Shown in pieces: positions 26,505 through 39,640 of a stretch of DNA of 64,000 nucleotides. The DNA is from Erysipelothrix anatis (GTDB taxonomy: Bacteria > Bacillota_I > Bacilli_A > Erysipelotrichales > Erysipelotrichaceae): assembly GCF_009828745.1 (NCBI RefSeq), contig NZ_WTSX01000010.1, forward strand, positions 1 to 64,000, in the 5' to 3' direction. Under the pieces are notes generated by a model, which saw only the letters and a program-made list of their open reading frames with translations, was not told the origin of the DNA and did not search any database. Position numbers and translations under genes: made by a program. Every line of letters begins with the position of its first letter. Position 1 is the first letter of the stretch.

Positions 26505-26591
26505 GCCCGAGTGGTGAAATCGGTAGACGCACTGGACTCAAAATCCAGCGAGGTAAAACTCATGACGGTTCGAGTCCGTCCTCGGGCACCA
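26505..26591 (+). tRNA. tRNA-Leu (CAA)
   Basis: 87-nt class II tRNA. Acceptor GCCCGAG (26505-26511) pairs with CTCGGGC (26581-26587), followed by encoded ACCA. Anticodon stem CTGGA/TCCAG, loop CTCAAAA with anticodon CAA at 26539-26541 (reads TTG). It has a variable arm and a normal GGTTCGAGTCC T-arm. The 3' flank contains decayed coding sequence. Confidence 0.97.
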
Positions 26592-26637
26592 TAAGATGAA
26601 TAATAACTCTGAATTTTAACTAATTCAGAGTTTTTTG

Positions 26638-27552: not shown

Positions 27553-28299
27553 ATGAAAATAAATGAATTACTACGACTTCATCGAGAAAAGATTGGCTTT
27601 ACACAAGAACAGCTCGCTGAGACAATTTATGTCACAAGGCAAGCAGTCTCTAAATGGGAAAGGGGAGAATCATTACCTGATCTGGAGAATATAATTATTC
27701 TTAGTGATTTGTATGATATATCAATAGATGAACTTTTGCGAGGAGCAAAATTTTTGGTGAAACCATTCCAAATTGGAGAGCACTCTTTCAGAAGAAATTT
27801 GCTCATTGGTATAATAATTTCATTATTGTTTTCTTTCATAGTATATGGAGGAAATAATCTTGTTGTGTTTAGTTTCGTGCTAATTTTTCTCGTGTTAATA
27901 ACGGTAACTTCTATTAAGGAAGGCAAGATAATCATTACAAAGCAAGGGATTAAAGTTGTTGACTATAAAAATACAATTCAAAAAATTCGATCAGTTTTTT
28001 CTAAAGACCGTAATGTGCTAAATTATTCGTTCAATGAAATAAACAGTTTTTCGATAAATTATGTGAAACGTCTAAGAATGAGTCCATTTGATTTTCATCC
28101 AGATATATTTCAGGTAGTGTTTAGAACAAGTGATGGAAAAGTTCATACTCAAACATCGACACCTCAAGTGACAAAAAGTTTACCAATAATATGTGATTAC
28201 CTAATGAAAAAGGGAGTCACGGTTTATGATGATAATGAAATCATAGAAATCATTATCAAGGGAGAGAATATATACGAAGTGCTGCATCGAGATAACTAG
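27553..28299 (+). CDS. XRE-family regulator with membrane domain
   Basis: 248-aa protein. Residues 1-65 form a Cro/CI helix-turn-helix (GFTQEQLAETIYVTRQAVSKWERG) of the kind that pairs with membrane modules. Two closely spaced membrane helices follow at about 85-120 (NLLIGIIISLLFSFIVYGG and the next hydrophobic run), then a hydrophilic PH-like C-terminal domain of about 120 aa. Presumably a membrane-tethered DNA-binding protein; ligand and targets are not known. It sits in the accessory region, and AT-rich sequence surrounds it. Confidence 0.75.
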   Translation: MKINELLRLHREKIGFTQEQLAETIYVTRQAVSKWERGESLPDLENIIILSDLYDISIDELLRGAKFLVKPFQIGEHSFRRNLLIGIIISLLFSFIVYGGNNLVVFSFVLIFLVLITVTSIKEGKIIITKQGIKVVDYKNTIQKIRSVFSKDRNVLNYSFNEINSFSINYVKRLRMSPFDFHPDIFQVVFRTSDGKVHTQTSTPQVTKSLPIICDYLMKKGVTVYDDNEIIEIIIKGENIYEVLHRDN

Positions 28300-28320: not shown

Positions 28321-28340
28321 TTTTTTTTTTTTTTTTTTTT
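28321..28340 (+). repeat. T20 homopolymer tract
   Basis: Twenty consecutive T's 22 bp after the stop of the XRE/membrane gene. No strong stem precedes it, so it is not a standard terminator. It lies about 30 bp upstream of the -35 of a candidate small RNA. Confidence 0.95.
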
Positions 28341-28369: not shown

Positions 28370-28397
28370 TTGTATTTTTCATAATTTATGTTATAAC
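28370..28397 (+). promoter_or_regulatory. promoter of candidate small RNA
   Basis: TTGTAT (28370-28375), 16-bp spacer, TATAAC (28392-28397). Predicted start about 28404. Confidence 0.5.
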
Positions 28398-28403
28398 ATA
28401 CTT

Positions 28404-28568
28404 AAATTAAAGGTAACCGTCCACTGAGAAGCTCAATAGACGGTAAGTAGGTAAGGAGCGACATAATCATATAGGTGTGATGTAATCATGAGAATGATTT
28501 AGGGCAATGTCCTGGTAGGCATCAAAAAAACATTCAAACAAAGAGGACACTCATTACGAGTGTCTTTT
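28404..28568 (+). ncRNA. candidate structured small RNA
   Basis: About 165 nt between a promoter-like sequence and a clear intrinsic terminator, with no convincing reading frame. A compact 5' hairpin has outer stem ACCGTC/GACGGT (28416-28421 and 28439-28444) and inner stem TGAG/CTCA (28425-28428 and 28432-28435). The 3' end is GACACTC-ATTAC-GAGTGTC (28546-28564) followed by TTTT. It matches no family I recognise. Confidence 0.45.
28546..28568 (+). terminator. terminator of the candidate small RNA
   Basis: GACACTC (28546-28552), ATTAC, GAGTGTC (28558-28564), TTTT. Confidence 0.75.
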
Positions 28569-28574
28569 ATTACA

Positions 28575-28698: not shown

Positions 28699-29541
28699 TT
28701 AATGTTGTGAAGCGAATACAACGAATGGTGTAATATCAGACATTCGTTTTTCTCGTATTAAATAATCTAAAATCATATCAATCGTTTCAGTATCCACAAA
28801 TGGTGCGAGAGGAATCAAGCCTTCAACACGCGCATTCGGCATAGACAGAGTAAGTTCAACGTGTTTGCGTAGTACAGCATCTTCTACAAACGGATATAGG
28901 CCTTCAATACCTTCCATGTCACTTTTCTCGTGAGCATAAGTGAATAAATTATTAATAGTCTCTGCATCCATAAATGGAGCAAAAGGTACGATGTCTGAGA
29001 GTTTGAAATCTTCTCGTAGTTTTAATTTTCGGATGATCATATTTAGATCTTCTTCATCTATAAACGCAACCAATGGCACAATGTCCTGAATTTTATAACG
29101 ATCAATGTTTTCAAGAATCCAGGCATTAATTTGACTTGTTTCCATAAAAGGAGCAATTGCAATCAGTGATTCGACCGTGAAATCTTCAGGGTCAACTTTA
29201 CTAAATACTTTTTCGAAAAGATCGGGCTTTGTAATTGGAGCAATATCAATAATTTCTTTCTCGTTTAATGGTTCATCATTTTCTATCTTTCGAACAGATT
29301 CTGCCATCCTTACATTTCCAAGTAGTTCATCAATTGAAATTGAAAAAATTTGTGAGAGTTCTGATAATTTTCCAATATCGGGACTTGTTAATCCATTTTC
29401 CCAAGATGATACTGCTTGATGGCTTACACCAAGTGTTTCTGCTAGTTCTCCTTGAGTAAGGTTTCGTTGTTTCCGTTGTGCGGCAATTACCTTACCAAGG
29501 CGATCCATATTAAATGTACTGACATTGTGAGTGATTTTCAT
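28699..29541 (-). CDS. XRE-family regulator fused to helical repeats
   Basis: 280-aa protein. A Cro/CI helix-turn-helix occupies about residues 12-68 (NLTQGELAETLGVSHQAVSSW). The rest is built of about five related helical units of 28-32 residues, each with a core like I-x-P-[FL]-[AV]-x-F-[MVI]-[DE]-x-x-x-[IL]-[ND] (IAIAPFMETSQIN, IVPLVAFIDEEDLN, IVPFAPFMDAETIN, LIPLAPFVDTETID). Such repeats usually bind protein or peptide. GAGGT lies 6 nt before ATG 29541, preferred over 29547. It is transcribed away from the bacteriocin-type ABC locus and may control it. Confidence 0.75.
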   Translation of the reverse strand: MKITHNVSTFNMDRLGKVIAAQRKQRNLTQGELAETLGVSHQAVSSWENGLTSPDIGKLSELSQIFSISIDELLGNVRMAESVRKIENDEPLNEKEIIDIAPITKPDLFEKVFSKVDPEDFTVESLIAIAPFMETSQINAWILENIDRYKIQDIVPLVAFIDEEDLNMIIRKLKLREDFKLSDIVPFAPFMDAETINNLFTYAHEKSDMEGIEGLYPFVEDAVLRKHVELTLSMPNARVEGLIPLAPFVDTETIDMILDYLIREKRMSDITPFVVFASQH

Positions 29542-29586
29542 AATCATACCTCGCTTTCTAACTAAATCTTACAATCTGAGTGTCAC

Positions 29587-29637
29587 ATTATAAAGCAAGC
29601 GCTCCTTGAATTATAGATTCAAGTAACGCTTGAATTA
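29587..29637. promoter_or_regulatory. nested palindromic operator upstream of the XRE repeat gene
   Basis: CAAGCG (29596-29601) and CGCTTG (29627-29632) enclose CTTGAAT (29605-29611) and ATTCAAG (29617-29623). CTTGAATTA recurs as a direct repeat at 29605-29613 and 29629-29637. A minus-strand TATAAT (29587-29592) abuts it, so the elements probably bind a regulator at the XRE gene promoter. Confidence 0.5.
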
Positions 29638-30050
29638 GTGTTTACTTATTGTTTTCATAATAATACGGTAATAATCTTCTGTCAATGAGATGTCATGATA
29701 GCGATCTTTTGGGAACTAATCAATCCTAGAAATTCACTTAAAATATTCTACATCTTACGCTGGGAATTATTAATTGTTATAAAAGTGTTTAAGGTTAGCG
29801 ATAAGTATCGTAGTAGAAAAGAGCTATTTTGATAATGGAATACCAACTCGACTTTAAACTGTCGAATGACTTAGCCTTGACTCTTGCAAAGCATCAGTCT
29901 GTTTAAAACTACCAAATAAGTGCAAATAACGACGACTTGGACAGATATACTGTAAAATGAAAATTTTGTTTGGTAGTATTTTACTATAAGTCTTAAGATT
30001 AATGTATCGAAATTATCATGTGTATCCTGTGATGATGAGAGGAATAGTAA
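29638..30050. other. intergenic region before the bacteriocin-type permease
   Basis: About 410 bp. It holds a 9-bp inverted repeat ACTACCAAA (29908-29916) / TTTGGTAGT (29969-29977) with a 52-nt loop, and short open frames below 30 codons. No lactococcin-972-like precursor (signal peptide plus about 65 residues) is present. GAGAGGAATAGTAA gives the permease ribosome site. Confidence 0.5.
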
Positions 30051-31981
30051 ATGAAGAAAACAATTAACATGATCTTATTAAGTGTTTTTACTTTTACGTT
30101 ACTAATGTCAATTTTCCAAGTAGATAGGTTTTCTGAGTCAATAACTATCGAAAACTATGATAACGAAGAAGTTGAATCCTATTACATGGTTTTTGATAGT
30201 GATTCAGCAGATAGCAACAATAAAAATCGACTGTTGAATGAACTTGATATCTTATTCAGTCAGTTAGAGTTTAATATATATATTATAGATGTGAGTAAAG
30301 TGCGCGAAGACCGTTTAAGTATTATAGCAAAAACGAACGATAGATCGTACATTAATAATCTACCGATTCGGAACGCTAAATTGATTGAAATAGGTAATTT
30401 CTCAAGCATAAATAACGGATTCACCAATTTATTTCAAGTTTTCTCTAAAAGCGTACTTAGCTTAGACTTGGTGGATACTTTACCCACGAGTCTGCAGTTA
30501 GAAAATTTTAAAATTAATGTGACAATACCTCTAAATATTGAAAATAAGCAAATAGTATCTTTACTTAGCTCAATTGCAAGCAATTATAATGCACAAATTG
30601 TTAAATCAGAAGTGTATGTGCAAGATTCCTTCATATTAAGAATATTTAATATGAACACATATCTTTACTTTTCTTTTTTGTGTATCCAGGTACTAGTTGT
30701 TTTTAATGCAATTTTATCAAACTCTAAAGAAATAATCATAAGAAAAATTGAGGGATATAGTTCTCTCAATATTTGGAAAAGTCTCACAATTAATAAACTT
30801 TCACTGTGGCCATTCTTTATAATTGCACCGATACAGTTAGGATTAATTCTTTATGTTTATCCGTACAGGAGTATCACAAAATATCTTATCAAAATCGAAT
30901 TGATTTATTTGATGTTTTCAATCATTGTGTTGCTTATAGCCGCTTGGCTCATGATTTGGATCATTTGTAAGCACAAAGAAAGTGAACTAATTAAAGGAAG
31001 ATTACCTTTAAGAAGAATCCAATATCTCGTTATGTTTCTTAAAATAGCTACTGTATTCATGCTCTTAACCACAGTTCCTGCAGTGGTTGATGATGTTATG
31101 AGGTACACTTCGATGCGTTCTAATTCACGAGAATACTTTGAGAAGTATGATGGATATTATGCAATAGACGGAAGCAATAATGATTCTAGAATGATGACAG
31201 AAGAAATGTCTCGAGATTTGTATGAAAGCATCGACTTGGAAAAATTTGTCTACAGTGCATATGAAAATGATAATGGGCAAATAATCGTAAGCGTAAATGA
31301 GGATTATTTTGAAAGAGCGAAAATTTCAGTGATGGATTATGAAATATATTTTTATGCTCCATCCGATAAAACATTTTTACCGAGTATGTTAGCGGACTAC
31401 TTCCCTAACAGCTTTAATGAATTTGTGTTTAATGAACTTGAGAAACCATTAGGAGATTATGCTCTCAAAAATAGATTGATGATTGTTGATGGCGATGATA
31501 GGTTAATAATATATATACCTACTGAGAACACAATCTATCATTCAATCATAAAGTTTGATGGAAGTGAGAGCGATTTTCAAAACTACATTAATTCTCTGAC
31601 TTTAAGTAAAAACTTGGGAACTCCTTTGATATCAATTAGCTTAAATGAAGCATATGTTGAAGTACAACATATATTTGCGAAGACTGCGCTAAGAGCGATT
31701 TGTGTTTTGATTGTGACACTAAGTGTTTTGCTATTGTGCAATTTTAGTAATGTCGCAATATCTAGAAAGAACTATGTAAGCGTAGATAGAATATATATAT
31801 ATCAGAAGGGTATGCTTTAAAAAAATCAACGAGAGATTATCTCGTAAACAATATGTTTATGTACTTACTTGTGTCAATACTTGGAAGTGTGATTCTGAAA
31901 ATAAGTCCAATGAATTATATACTACCGTTGATATTAATATTATTATGTGATCTGCTGGCTATTGTAGGAGGCAACAAATGA
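30051..31981 (+). pseudogene. bacteriocin-associated integral membrane protein (lactococcin 972 type), frameshifted
   Basis: Permease partner of the ABC ATPase that follows. The open frame encodes 589 aa: signal-like first helix, a large extracellular segment, three helices at about 200-310, a fourth near 325-345, a second extracellular segment and one helix near 550-570, the topology of the family linked to lactococcin-972 export/immunity. It stops at 31818-31820, but the -1 frame from about 31812 continues with GYALKKSTRDYLVNN and two further hydrophobic helices to a TGA at 31979-31981 that overlaps the ATPase ATG by 4 bp. An (AT)6 tract (31791-31802) lies just before the break. The last two helices are therefore lost unless the frame is restored. 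Confidence 0.75.
31791..31802 (+). repeat. (AT)6 dinucleotide tract at the permease frameshift
   Basis: Six AT units inside the coding sequence, 16 bp before the premature stop. Loss of one unit, or gain of one base, would restore the downstream frame. Confidence 0.85.
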
Positions 31982-32607
31982 AAATTCAAGCTGAAAATAT
32001 CGTAAAGAAATATGGTCAAAGAGTGGTTCTAAACAACTTCAACATTTTGATTGAATCTGGAGAATTTATGGCTTTAATGGGTGAAAGTGGTTGTGGTAAA
32101 ACCACATTGGTTAATATACTTGGGCTCATTGATTCTGAATTTGAAGGTGTAGTTAAATATGATGGAAAAATAATTTCAAGATCGAGTGATAAAAGACAGA
32201 TTTTGAAAAATGACATTTCTTTTATCTTTCAAAATTACGGGCTTATTGATAATAAAACCGTAGAATACAACTTATCTTTACTTCTAAACGTCAAAAAAAT
32301 GAGCAAAGTGGAAAGGCAGGAAGCAATTAATTTAGCATTGAGTAAAGTAGGTTTAATTGATATTTTAGATAAAAAAGTTTACGAGCTGTCAGGAGGAGAA
32401 CAACAAAGAGTCGCATTATCAAAAGTCTTCCTTAAGAAATCTAAGCTAATTATTGCTGATGAGCCAACAGCATCGTTAGATAGTGAAAATGAAAAAGAAG
32501 TGATGCAATATTTTAATGAGATAAATCAGGAAGGCTGCACAATTGTTGTCGTAACACATAGTGCAACTGTTGCGAGTTATGCAAAGAGAACCGTGAAAAT
32601 TGAGTAA
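31978..32607 (+). CDS. ABC transporter ATP-binding protein (bacteriocin export/immunity type)
   Basis: 209-aa ATPase. Walker A GESGCGKTT, Q-loop FIFQNYGLID, signature LSGGEQQRVAL, Walker B LIIADEPTASLD and the switch His in VVTHSA are all intact. The sequence type and its coupling to the large permease match lactococcin-972-group transporters. The ATG overlaps the restored permease frame (ATGA), which supports the view that the permease frame originally ended there. Confidence 0.88.
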   Translation: MKIQAENIVKKYGQRVVLNNFNILIESGEFMALMGESGCGKTTLVNILGLIDSEFEGVVKYDGKIISRSSDKRQILKNDISFIFQNYGLIDNKTVEYNLSLLLNVKKMSKVERQEAINLALSKVGLIDILDKKVYELSGGEQQRVALSKVFLKKSKLIIADEPTASLDSENEKEVMQYFNEINQEGCTIVVVTHSATVASYAKRTVKIE

Positions 32608-34243: not shown

Positions 34244-34542
34244 TTATCTGCACATTTTTTGAAAAGTACAGATGAAATATCTCGAATGATAAGATACGTG
34301 AAGTTAATGATACCTAGTACGATTCCTAAATAAATGTACAATTACATTCATTTCTTTTAGAACTAATCTGCGTTGACGCAAATGCTATGATACCCTTTTT
34401 ATTCGTGCATATTTGATAATTTCGGGATTTCTTAGATTAATTACCAATGCTATGACTTATAAAAATATTTTAAAAATTCGCATAAATCACATTCTGGTGC
34501 TATTATATTAGTGTAGCGTCAAATCACTACGTGGGGGGAAAT
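34244..34542. other. promoter region of the MucBP surface protein
   Basis: About 300 bp of AT-rich sequence. A TATTATATT run at 34500-34508 is the likely -10. GGGGGGA (34533-34539) is the ribosome site. No gene seen. Confidence 0.35.
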
Positions 34543-36504
34543 ATGAAAAAAGGAAAAATCTGTTCGACTTTAGTCGCACTGACACTCTTACTTATGAGTG
34601 TTGCGCCAATGGTCGAACCAGTTTTAGCTCATCAAGTTACGATGGGTGGAGCAATACAAGGTGGCGAAACATACGGGGAATTCAATAGTATTCTCGTATA
34701 TCCGAATTCTGAATCGTCAATTCTTACAAGAACCAATATGTTCAATATGAGACGATTCGATAATTGGGATACATCACATGCATGGTCAAAAAGCTATGCG
34801 CCCTTAGACGGAATTCAAAGTATTGCACCAGGTATGGAAGTAAGTCTTCTACTATTGGAAGAACCAAGTAAAATTGAAGATTTCTTGACGAAAGACTTAG
34901 AATTTGTGTTCAGCATTACAAATGATGGTGAAAACTATACTGTTGCTACACAAGATCTTCAATACAATGAAGGTACACAAACCTACATTTATCCTAATGA
35001 AGTTCAAGGATATAAATTAGAATTCATTAATCATTCATCAGAGACTCAAGCAATTGATTCCGTGGCGAATGTTCAACATACGATTAAATTAAATTATAAC
35101 AATATGAGTCAAGACCAGCTTGCGGGGAAAGAACCGCTTGCTTATTGGGTTGATTCACAATTTGTCAATCAAGAACCTAAACCAACGACACAAAAAATTT
35201 ATGTCATCCAGCCTAAAATCTCGGGTCAAGTTAAGTACCAAGAACTTGAAAATGAAACCAATGCACCTCAGTGGGATACAGCAGTTGTAAAAGAAAATGC
35301 TGTTGTTCAACTAATTGAAAATACACCGGTTGGTAATGTAGTAGTTGGCGAAACAAAGACCGATGCAAACGGACAGTATACATTCTCAAGTTTGAAAAAT
35401 AACGCAGACTCCTACAAAATCTCAAACAGTGAAAATAGTCTCAGTGTTCGAGTCATGGAAGATAATGGTGAAACATGGATTCTGTCAGACAACATGTCTG
35501 ATTTTGTAAAAGGAAATGGCGTTTCCATAGGCCGTATTACAGATATAAGTAGATATGATGAATCATTTGAAACTGCTTTTGCGAAAGTTCGATGGAACCC
35601 AGAGTTCAAGACCATAAATGAAGAAGGATCTCATGCGGTAGATATAAAGACAATCATAACTGAGACTAAAGAAGAGCCACAACCAACTGAATTAACTGTT
35701 AGATATGTGGATACATTCGGAAATACGATTGCTCCAAATAAAGCAGTTCAAGGTCTTGTCGGTGATGCTTACGATGTTTCAACAGCTGATTACAAGTTAA
35801 ATATCGAAGGCTACTCATTCAAAGAAACTGAAGGTCTATTGATGGGGTCATTGACTGATGAAGCGCAAATAGTTACTTATATCTATACTAAGAATCCGGT
35901 TAGTCCATCAGTATTAACTGTAAATTACATTGATAAACTTGGAAATACAATTGCGCCAAGTAAAGTGATTCAAGGACATGTTGGTGATGTCTATGATGTC
36001 TCAACAGCTGAGTTCAAACTAGAAATTAAAGGTTTTACTTTTGATAAAATTGAAGGGGTGTTAAGTGGAACACTTGTTGACGCAAAACATACTGTTACAT
36101 TTATATATGATAAGCTACCCGCGAACACATCAGAGTTAACTGTAAACTATGTCGATACTTTTGGAAATACGATAGCGCCAAGTAAGGTTGTTCACGGTTT
36201 AGTTGGGGATGCATACGATGTATCAACACCAACTTTCAAACTTGAATTAAAGGGTTATACGTTTAAAAATGTTGAAGGACTCGTTGTTGGAAAATTAACA
36301 CAAGAGTCACAAGTCGTTACCTATATCTACGAACAAGATACTGTTACACCTGTGAAACCGGTCGAACCAGAAAAACCTGTAGAGCCTACATTACCCGCAA
36401 CCGGAATGAACAATTCATTCATGGTATTAGGTAGTTTAATACTTACACTCGGTCTACTATTGATTGTCAAAGAAGAGACGAACAAATCAACGCGTCAACA
36501 ATAA
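34543..36504 (+). CDS. LPXTG-anchored surface protein with three MucBP repeats
   Basis: Sortase-anchored cell-wall protein of 653 aa. Signal peptide (cleavage near VLAHQ), a unique N-terminal region of about 200 aa, a Cna-B/prealbumin-like domain (SGQVKYQELE to DANGQYTFSSL, about 225-300), three MucBP-type repeats of about 70 aa starting ELTVRYVDTFGNTIAP, and the anchor LPATG followed by a hydrophobic helix and a positively charged tail. MucBP domains in other species bind mucin or form spacers. The GTG at 34531 is less likely than ATG 34543. No sortase gene is in the window. Confidence 0.9.
   Translation: MKKGKICSTLVALTLLLMSVAPMVEPVLAHQVTMGGAIQGGETYGEFNSILVYPNSESSILTRTNMFNMRRFDNWDTSHAWSKSYAPLDGIQSIAPGMEVSLLLLEEPSKIEDFLTKDLEFVFSITNDGENYTVATQDLQYNEGTQTYIYPNEVQGYKLEFINHSSETQAIDSVANVQHTIKLNYNNMSQDQLAGKEPLAYWVDSQFVNQEPKPTTQKIYVIQPKISGQVKYQELENETNAPQWDTAVVKENAVVQLIENTPVGNVVVGETKTDANGQYTFSSLKNNADSYKISNSENSLSVRVMEDNGETWILSDNMSDFVKGNGVSIGRITDISRYDESFETAFAKVRWNPEFKTINEEGSHAVDIKTIITETKEEPQPTELTVRYVDTFGNTIAPNKAVQGLVGDAYDVSTADYKLNIEGYSFKETEGLLMGSLTDEAQIVTYIYTKNPVSPSVLTVNYIDKLGNTIAPSKVIQGHVGDVYDVSTAEFKLEIKGFTFDKIEGVLSGTLVDAKHTVTFIYDKLPANTSELTVNYVDTFGNTIAPSKVVHGLVGDAYDVSTPTFKLELKGYTFKNVEGLVVGKLTQESQVVTYIYEQDTVTPVKPVEPEKPVEPTLPATGMNNSFMVLGSLILTLGLLLIVKEETNKSTRQQ
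35689..36336 (+). repeat. three tandem MucBP-encoding repeats
   Basis: Three units of about 216 bp, each encoding [EL]LTV-Y-D--GNTIAP-K-[IV]-G--GD-YDVST. Identity between copies is clear at protein level and partial at DNA level. Confidence 0.85.
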
Positions 36505-36947: not shown

Positions 36948-37315
36948 AAATGAACTCCTTTCTTTAATAATAGCATAGATAATAGAGGTCTGTTGTTTAT
37001 TCCTCGTCGCCAGTATTGTGATTCGTTCAATTTTTAAATTCAACGATGTGACAGAACTAATTAATGCCGTGAATCTTAGTGATTACCCAGTGTGTTCTGC
37101 ATTCATTAAATAATGAGCATAAAATATCATTGAACAAAGCCACGACACCATGAAGTACTTTAATTTCTAACGATAATTTTTAAAATCTCAAAATGAATTG
37201 ACCATAGTGGTAACTTAAAGGAAGATATTGTCCTCGTTAACAATTTTTCATGATATATGTCGAAAGTTATGATATGGTTAGTATTATAGAAAGAAATCAA
37301 AATGGGGGTTTTGAT
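36948..37315. other. intergenic region before the InlB-repeat protein
   Basis: 370 bp. The left end holds the promoter of the minus-strand lipoprotein. A short plus frame ending at about 37112 has coding-like composition but no start. GTTAGTATTATAG (37276-37288) is the probable -10 of the surface-protein gene. Confidence 0.35.
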
Positions 37316-39640
37316 ATGAAAAAATCATTTAAGATTTTGAATAGTTTTCTTGTATTAGTTCTATTGTTCGGTCTGTTATCCATTCATACAGTTTCGGCAC
37401 AAGAAAGTTTAACACAACAAGAAATATTTGAAGCAATTGTAAAAAAGGCCAATGGCTTCGATCCGAATGAAGATATGGTTCTGGAACAAGAACATTACGA
37501 TGCTGCAGAACGAGTCTCAACAATGCTGGAGTATCCAATGAATGGCTGGAATAATCCATCTGAGTTGGTATACTTGAACGACTTAAGTTATCTTGAAAAA
37601 CTTACGAATATGAAGGAATTAAGCATTCATGTTCCAACAGTAATTGATGCATTTGAATATGATGTCAATTATTTAAATACACTCCCTTACGAACGTTTAA
37701 CATTAGGTACACGTATCGGCTACAGTATAAATGATTCAGAAATAGTCAACATTCAGAAGAATCAAGTAAAATTACTCGAAATGCTTGATCGTCCTGACAA
37801 AGTTGAAGTTAGGGTTGCGAAATTTGGTGTCCTTGATAATGACTTTTTACTTGGTCTCGATTTGAAACCAAGCATTGCACTGCTCACTACAATTGACGAA
37901 GAAGCGAATATGCGAGATTTAGCACTCGATTTTGCATTTAGTCATGAAGCGAATGGCGTTCGCTATTATAAGACACATGTTGCGAACCCTTTCGCTACAA
38001 CACTGACACTGGACGAATCAGCACATGTTATTTCTGATCAAACGCGCACAAATTCTGAATGGGACTTATTGATTTTTGACCAAGACAGTCTGCGTCCTAT
38101 ATTTTATGATGTCAGTGGAAATGTTGTCGCAGGTCAAGACGAGTATTGGTCTTATCTAGGGAAAGCTGTAGATTCCATGGACGTATTCTTCACCGAGGAT
38201 GAACTCAATGAAATCATTTCAAGATTTGTTGATTATTTATCCTATTTAGGAAGTCAAATCACAAATAATTACGAATTTTTATATGAAACTGATGCTTTAC
38301 TTGTTGGCGAAACTGACCCAGCTGTCATCGAAGATTTGAATGAAACAATTGCATTTGCTAAAGAATTAATTGCAGAACTAGAACAAGAACTACTTCAATT
38401 GAAGACAGAGGGTACGTCTAGTGAAACAAAAGTTGTTGACTTTGCGATTATGCAAAAAGGTGTTGATGCTACTCAAGAACATTTCTTTGAAACCAGTCAA
38501 AGATTCTTTGGTAACTTGAGAATTACGGACGATGTTTATCAAACATATACCGTCACATTTGACTCAAATGGTGGTACTCGTATCCCACAATTACGTGAAA
38601 TTAAAACAAATAGTAAAATTGCCGAACCAGTAACTCCAACGAAAGGTTCGATTGCATTTGAAGGTTTGTTCAAAGAGGCATCTTTAACTACTCCATGGGA
38701 TTTTGATACCGATGTGGTAACTGAGGATATCACTTTGTATGCAAAATGGGACGAGATTATTCACGATGTACACTTTGATTCTAAAGGTGGTACCGCAATT
38801 GATTCACAGCGTATAGTCGACCAAGAACTTGTCGTAAAACCATCAGATCCAACATATCTTGGACATACCTTTGAGGGATGGTATCTGGATCAATCCTATA
38901 CAACACAATATGATTTCACATCACCAGTGTCCAATGGCTTAACACTTTACGCGAAATGGAATAAAATTCCTGTAAATTACACGGTCACCTTTGATAGCAG
39001 GGGCGGATGCTTGGTGGACGCCCAGTCAGTATTGGCGGGTACAACTGCATCCGTTCCGAATGATCCTACACAAAGTGGATACACGTTTGGCGGGTGGTAT
39101 AGTGATGAAGCGTATGCTTTAAGCTATGATTTTACGACGCCTGTTAATGATAATTTAACTCTATTTGCCAAATGGGATAAGGCTACTGTATCCCACATTG
39201 TTTCTTTCGAAAGCAATGGCGGTAGCTCTGTAGATGATCAAACGGTACTAGAAAATACTAAGGCAGTTGAACCATTGACACCGACTCGTGATGGATTCAC
39301 ATTTAAAGGGTGGTATCGAGATACAACTTTCGAAAATATGTACAATTTTAATCAACTCGTAACTGAAGATTTAACACTGTATGCAAAATGGAGTCAAGAC
39401 GCGATTAATCCAATTGACCCTGTAGATCCAATTGATCCAGTAAAACCAATTGATCCAGTAAAACCAATTGATCCAGTAAAACCAATTGATCCAGTACAGC
39501 CAATAGATCCCGTACAACCTGAGCCAACGCTACCTGAAACTGGAGTAGGTAATATGCTGAATAATTTTGGTATGTTCCTCATAGGATTTGGGATTTTAAG
39601 TGCTTTTGTAGGTTATTATAATAAACGAAAAACTGTTTAG
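37316..39640 (+). CDS. LPXTG surface protein with four InlB B-repeats and Pro-rich stalk
   Basis: 774-aa sortase substrate. Signal peptide (to about SAQES), a 400-aa N-terminal region with a leucine-rich-like segment (YLEKLTNMKELSIHV), four B-repeats of about 70 aa (FDSNGG...FEGWY...LTLYAKW), a PIDPVKP stalk encoded by 18-bp DNA repeats, LPETG, hydrophobic helix and a basic tail. In the first repeat the usual Trp of FEGW is Leu. ATG 37316 follows GGGGG; upstream in-frame ATG 37250 lacks a site. Repeats of this type act as adhesin spacers in Listeria internalins. Confidence 0.9.
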   Translation: MKKSFKILNSFLVLVLLFGLLSIHTVSAQESLTQQEIFEAIVKKANGFDPNEDMVLEQEHYDAAERVSTMLEYPMNGWNNPSELVYLNDLSYLEKLTNMKELSIHVPTVIDAFEYDVNYLNTLPYERLTLGTRIGYSINDSEIVNIQKNQVKLLEMLDRPDKVEVRVAKFGVLDNDFLLGLDLKPSIALLTTIDEEANMRDLALDFAFSHEANGVRYYKTHVANPFATTLTLDESAHVISDQTRTNSEWDLLIFDQDSLRPIFYDVSGNVVAGQDEYWSYLGKAVDSMDVFFTEDELNEIISRFVDYLSYLGSQITNNYEFLYETDALLVGETDPAVIEDLNETIAFAKELIAELEQELLQLKTEGTSSETKVVDFAIMQKGVDATQEHFFETSQRFFGNLRITDDVYQTYTVTFDSNGGTRIPQLREIKTNSKIAEPVTPTKGSIAFEGLFKEASLTTPWDFDTDVVTEDITLYAKWDEIIHDVHFDSKGGTAIDSQRIVDQELVVKPSDPTYLGHTFEGWYLDQSYTTQYDFTSPVSNGLTLYAKWNKIPVNYTVTFDSRGGCLVDAQSVLAGTTASVPNDPTQSGYTFGGWYSDEAYALSYDFTTPVNDNLTLFAKWDKATVSHIVSFESNGGSSVDDQTVLENTKAVEPLTPTRDGFTFKGWYRDTTFENMYNFNQLVTEDLTLYAKWSQDAINPIDPVDPIDPVKPIDPVKPIDPVKPIDPVQPIDPVQPEPTLPETGVGNMLNNFGMFLIGFGILSAFVGYYNKRKTV
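38545..39392 (+). repeat. four InlB-type B-repeat units
   Basis: Four units of about 210 bp, each ending in codons for LT-L-[YF]-AKW. Confidence 0.85.
39410..39517 (+). repeat. six 18-bp tandem repeats (PIDPVK)
   Basis: Six units of CCAATTGATCCAGTAAAA or close variants at 39410, 39428, 39446, 39464, 39482 and 39500. The three central copies are identical. They encode a Pro-rich wall-spanning stalk, and copy number can change without frameshift. Confidence 0.95.

Follow-up and report, generated by a model that had tools for sequence, protein, structure and literature searches.

Within the 64,000-nucleotide stretch of Erysipelothrix anatis DNA analysed here (hereafter the window), a gene for a putative permease stops short of the ABC transporter ATPase gene that follows it, and does so at a run of six AT units. 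The question raised by this locus is whether the tract acts as a reversible switch of a transporter, or whether the sequenced allele has simply lost its function.

The frame break and the AT tract

The permease open reading frame (positions 30051–31820, forward strand) comprises 589 codons in the list of open reading frames and would encode a 589-residue protein; frame 0 ends early, at a TAA codon (31818–31820). The −1 frame is open from position 31790 to a TGA (31979–31981) that overlaps the start codon of the ATPase gene (ATG, 31978–31980). Since a stop in the −1 frame lies immediately before 31790 and frame 0 stops at 31820, the change of frame is confined to the 31 basepairs that are open in both (31790–31820), and 12 of those 31 bases are occupied by the (AT)6 tract (31791–31802). 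The initial annotation of this region had described the early stop, the continuation of the −1 frame into the ATPase start codon and the proximity of the break to six AT units, and all three were confirmed by our inspection of the frames.

The remainder of the permease gene in the −1 frame (31802–31981, forward strand) contains a second docking motif with its invariant glycine, two transmembrane helices (TM7 and TM8) and the terminal TGA. Hydropathy analysis agreed with the earlier statement that this stretch adds two membrane helices. The corresponding peptide, SEGYALKKSTRDYLVNNMFMYLLVSILGSVILKISPMNYILPLILILLCDLLAIVGGNK, contains an ‘x-G-Y’ motif. Its score was 19.2 bits against a C-terminal profile of homologues from which the window's own tail peptide was excluded, as compared with a maximum of 8.7 bits among 200 shuffled sequences. 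On the strength of this profile match the −1-frame tail is genuine permease sequence, and the annotation of the 589-residue open reading frame should be corrected from ‘protein’ to ‘truncated allele’.

The adjoining ABC ATPase gene (31978–32607, forward strand; TIGR03608, PF00005) is intact. Its product displays a Walker A motif (GESGCGKT), an ABC signature (LSGGE) and a Walker B motif (LIIADEP), and a GGAGG sequence is located just upstream of its ATG. Because all three motifs are present and the gene has its own GGAGG, the ATPase is probably still made despite the break upstream.

Pattern searches of the 2,185,093-base genome found ATATATATATAT only once, at 31791–31802. AT tracts of at least five units occur at only three places in the whole genome, two of which are in the permease gene: the (AT)6 tract and an in-frame (AT)5 tract at 30274–30283 (forward strand). 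Markov models trained on the window predict between 0.55 and 0.76 (AT)6 tracts per 2.185-Mb genome, as compared with the one observed. We therefore rejected the idea that an (AT)6 tract is remarkable by itself, given that the presence of one is expected by chance and that 39 of 60 related genomes carry at least one. By our arithmetic, the chance of such a tract landing in the 31-basepair interval is roughly 1e-5 if genomic positions are taken at random, and 1e-4 if the AT-richness of the gene itself is taken into account. What is unexpected is thus the position of the tract on the frame change, and not the existence of one (AT)6 in the genome.

Family membership, predicted fold and the site of the break

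The best match to the permease among NCBIfam models is TIGR01654 (bacteriocin-associated integral membrane protein; 47.7 bits, E 8.5e-13), with a score that misses the curated cut-off of 189.35 bits; no relative among 117 genomes reached that cut-off. A full-length member would be a two-unit permease that ends at the ATPase gene; the window allele stops before TM7. As judged from these scores, the window permease is a divergent relative of TIGR01654 and not a filed member. Its earlier designation as a bacteriocin-type permease is supported: the protein is of the bacteriocin-associated 7TM type and is located beside its ATPase. For the ATPase, TIGR03608 (L_ocin_972_ABC, putative bacteriocin export ABC transporter) was the best of all NCBIfam models (242.7 bits, E 2.5e-72), yet the score falls narrowly under the curated cut-off of 254.85.

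A profile built from 70 sequences matched MacB (5lil, E 9.4e-8). The predicted model of an intact homologue found in the same bacterial family (L048, 706 residues; mean pLDDT 82.6, pTM 0.79) aligned with E. coli YbbAP (Foldseek E 6.6e-11) and with BceAB (Z 18.3 over 377 residues, rmsd 6.6). The layout of a type VII (MacB/FtsX-like) unit, in which a membrane helix, an ectodomain, a second membrane helix, a docking helix and two further membrane helices follow one another, was found in the predicted models of this homologue and of the window protein. In the 589-residue frame, hydropathy and the structure model give the order TM1, ectodomain 1, TM2–TM5, ectodomain 2 and TM6. The intact relatives are thus predicted to consist of two MacB-like units fused in one chain, resembling YbbP and BceB.

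In the model of the intact homologue the second membrane helix of each MacB-like unit is followed by a short helix (residues 240–248 and 626–634), which corresponds to the ATPase-docking (coupling) helix of this fold, a role established for MacB, LolCDE and BceAB. The two helices are followed by Gly250 and Gly636, respectively. The glycine is invariant at each of the two docking motifs in all 50 aligned homologues, and the segment beginning ten residues before it is free of gaps in all 50 at both copies. The first-half docking motif of the window permease, SKEIIIRKIEGYS (30720–30770, forward strand), provides an internal counterpart of the broken site.

Approximately 79 distinct, full-length, intact homologues (a count that depends on the profile cut-offs chosen) read through the site of the break to the family C-terminus, and, within the genus, the family and the order, those with a similar ATPase as neighbour run past the break point up to the ATPase gene. 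Homologues ending naturally at the window's stop residue, which according to the initial annotation would have spoken against its interpretation, were looked for and rejected as an explanation: none of the intact homologues ends there, and the truncation therefore stands. An AT tract of at least five units was found at the break site in none of these homologues. Dinucleotide tracts of at least five units were seen in only three of the ∼79, never at a motif.

A search of genome contigs with the permease protein did not find a close relative, and the best relatives found with the ATPase protein, from Erysipelotrichaceae, displayed 46% identity. The plasmids and viral contigs searched contained no permease-like sequence, and the plasmid and phage records searched contained no near-identical copies of the region.

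Proposed explanations: loss of function, switching and others

The 589-residue product (modelled at pLDDT 72) keeps the first unit and lacks the end of the second docking helix, the invariant glycine and TM7–TM8. Because these elements are removed, the window allele is very probably non-functional. When the tract is discounted, the second motif fits the family register and mirrors RKIEGYS (RKIEG) in the gene's own first-half motif. Since it fits only in that case, the tract would represent an insertion of about 11 nucleotides, and because the insertion falls in a segment of invariant length, frames joined by a change of one unit would still leave extra residues in the docking helix.

On balance, we consider it probable that the window carries a recent and essentially ordinary loss of function made by slippage, open to reversal by further slippage but not a product of selection for switching. 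The locus would then encode a two-gene ABC transporter, composed of a permease of two fused MacB-like units and its ATPase. Either a changed length of the AT tract or the short AT-rich insertion from which it arose would shift the last ∼60 permease codons out of frame, and the resulting protein, without its second docking helix, glycine and last two membrane helices, would leave the transporter off in the sequenced genome. Slippage is the likely cause of the lesion, given that the lesion coincides with the AT tract. Some points count against a simple loss of function. The lesion is single and the rest of the locus, including the ATPase, is intact, which fits a switch as well; and the permease gene holds two thirds of the genome's longer AT tracts (at least five units), with a parallel case in a second genome (G112, described below). 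If the loss-of-function reading is correct, the locus illustrates ordinary gene decay, yet would also mark the docking segment as a break point in AT-rich genomes.

A survey of the family indicated that about 10 of roughly 90 loci are broken (about one in nine); the survey was small, drew partly on draft or metagenome assemblies, and used a profile (A1) that included the window's truncated protein. Four of the broken relatives carry plain in-frame stops (G025, G021, G068 and G087, the first with several lesions) and another (G580) is broken by a deletion. A link between breakage and repeats was considered for these five loci and rejected. With about ten broken loci, several of them interrupted by plain stops, loss by a single lesion appears to be common in the family.

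In two other relatives the frame changes at a repeat. In the permease of a distant relative in another family (locus L087; G112:C9:4800-9000, minus strand) the first half loses its frame at a (TA)5 tract immediately ahead of the first docking motif, at about 1687–1728 of the reverse complement; the frame change is confined to about 40 basepairs around the tract, and the ATPase behind it is intact. In a related permease (locus L089; G031:C49:7000-13000, minus strand) the frame shifts within the first docking motif, at an A7 run (about 2238–2267 of the reverse complement), again with an intact ATPase behind. Because its (TA)5 tract is in a place that tolerates changes in length, the G112 locus appears to be a better candidate for phase variation than the window gene. 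These breaks, taken together with the (AT)6 tract described here, allow the broader conjecture of recurrent switching in this permease family through slippage of repeats at the docking segments, with docking toggled and the ATPase left intact. We regard that generalization as quite doubtful; if true, recurrent slippage would constitute a family-wide contingency point in competition or immunity transporters of Bacillota.

The initial annotation had proposed that slippage by one unit switches the full-length protein on or off. On that view the transporter would be phase-variable: mispairing of slipped strands at (AT)6 would reversibly join and separate the two frames, ON and OFF cells would coexist in one population, and the sequenced genome would represent the OFF form. 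Several observations are consistent with that proposal: the lesion lies within the tract, and no AT run of the genome is longer; the lesion is the only one, with the ATPase intact and the stop/start overlap retained in the −1 frame; the breaks at (TA)5 in G112 and at A7 in G031 are parallel cases with intact ATPases behind them; and there is a precedent in the phase-variable gene p78, part of an operon for an ABC transporter in Mycoplasma fermentans (cited in PMC3711429). The repeat, however, contains only six units and is an insertion into a segment of identical length in all 50 aligned homologues, such that the product of the joined frames would still be abnormal and the ON form would carry extra residues. 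The intact homologues display no such tract at this site, and a single (AT)6 per genome accords with chance expectation. Had a contingency repeat evolved, one would look for it at a place that tolerates changes in length, as in G112, and given how often single lesions (several of them ordinary stops) inactivate members of this family, no switch is needed to explain one more. The claim of reversible one-unit switching was thus not upheld by the comparison with homologues, and we consider phase variation at this site to be unlikely. Our literature search yielded no direct report of dinucleotide repeats in phase-variable transporters of bacteriocins. Should the tract prove variable, the locus would represent a phase-variable, putative bacteriocin-immunity/export transporter, of a kind for which we found no report of such a switch in this Gram-positive genus, and would give experimental access, through its ON and OFF states, to a transporter family of as yet unverified function.

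Loss of function is also favored over three readings in which the true product is not disabled. The genome is a draft of 29 contigs, and a two-base miscount in a repeat is a classic artefact, such that the true gene might be in frame and the break an error of sequencing or assembly. Accurate short reads, however, rarely miscount a 12-basepair dinucleotide run, and restoring the frame by adding or removing one unit would still leave the length-invariant motif too long, which argues that something real was inserted; we judge an error to be very unlikely. More improbable still is that the truncated permease works as a short form, or that the −1-frame tail is a separate small protein that completes it. 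A restart ahead of the ATPase is conceivable and the tail does contain two helices, but none of the homologues is naturally split at the second motif, the glycine that is lost is invariant, and inspection by eye revealed no obvious start codon and Shine-Dalgarno sequence before the helices of the tail. The least probable of the readings considered is that the full-length permease is made because ribosomes are programmed to shift frame at the tract or because transcription slips there. Preservation of the −1 frame and of the tight stop/start overlap would fit that mechanism, but inspection by eye found no standard −1 slippery heptamer ahead of the 31818 stop. The ∼79 homologues have no such change of frame, and the window gene would be the only one with such a site.

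Genomic surroundings and comparison with known systems

The permease-ATPase pair is absent from a sister species (G007), in which no relative of the permease was detected. Similarity to that genome (87%) ends at position 26592, at the 3′ end of a tRNA-Leu gene (26505–26591). Given this limit and the lack of a permease relative, the pair sits in an accessory stretch (26592 to at least 32607) that has no counterpart at this position in the closest relative compared. The tRNA-Leu gene (anticodon CAA), with its 3′ end at the limit of similarity, is a likely hot spot of integration or rearrangement.

Several other features of the region were observed. An intergenic stretch of ∼185 nucleotides (28388–28572) is 84% identical (154 of 183 positions) to a segment of the sister genome (G007 C33:15044-15226) that has different neighbours; it folds well (−43.8 kcal/mol, z −3.3), terminates in a hairpin with T residues after it, had no Rfam match at gathering scores, and is a candidate small RNA. 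About 50 basepairs upstream of it, and ∼20 basepairs past the stop of an XRE regulator gene (27553–28299), is an uninterrupted run of 20 T residues (28321–28340), which exceeds every other homopolymer of the window by a wide margin and has a better length for slippage than (AT)6. The region of an XRE-type regulator gene at 28714–29677 is 82% identical to G003 226638-227595 and 79% identical to a sequence in G007:C45, is found in different surroundings in both, and is apparently mobile. Downstream of the pair are genes for cell-wall-anchored surface proteins (34531–36504 and 37250–39640) with MucBP repeats and Listeria-Bacteroides repeats, the latter accompanied by an 18-basepair unit repeated six times (39410–39519).

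Among the closest known systems is the TIGR01654 and TIGR03608 pair (bacteriocin-associated 7TM permease with a lactococcin-972-type ATPase, for example ScbB-ScbC of pneumococcus), with which the window pair shares the permease-to-ATPase gene order, size, helix layout and profile matches. The window pair differs in that the permease is far under the family cut-off and cut by a frame change, and the ATPase slightly under its own. Unlike a lactococcin-972-type locus, the window pair has no precursor gene that we could find beside it: no open reading frame resembling a secreted peptide was seen between 29548 and 30050, and the small open reading frames upstream of the permease were without a Pfam match. 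The products of the B and C genes of lactococcin-972-type loci themselves lack experimental verification (PMC11796350). As far as these comparisons allow, the ‘immunity/export’ role assigned earlier to the window pair is only an annotation.

The comparison with YbbAP, BceAB and other type VII (MacB/FtsX-like) transporters is structural. Two MacB-like units and two docking helices are shared, as predicted for the intact homologue, while sequence identity is just 8–10% in the best structural alignments. The second unit of the window permease is cut before its docking helix is complete, and no two-component system was identified next to the window pair. With contingency genes that carry simple-sequence repeats, including p78, the window gene shares a frame change inside a short repeat of the coding sequence; it differs from them in that its repeat is short and disrupts an element of invariant length.
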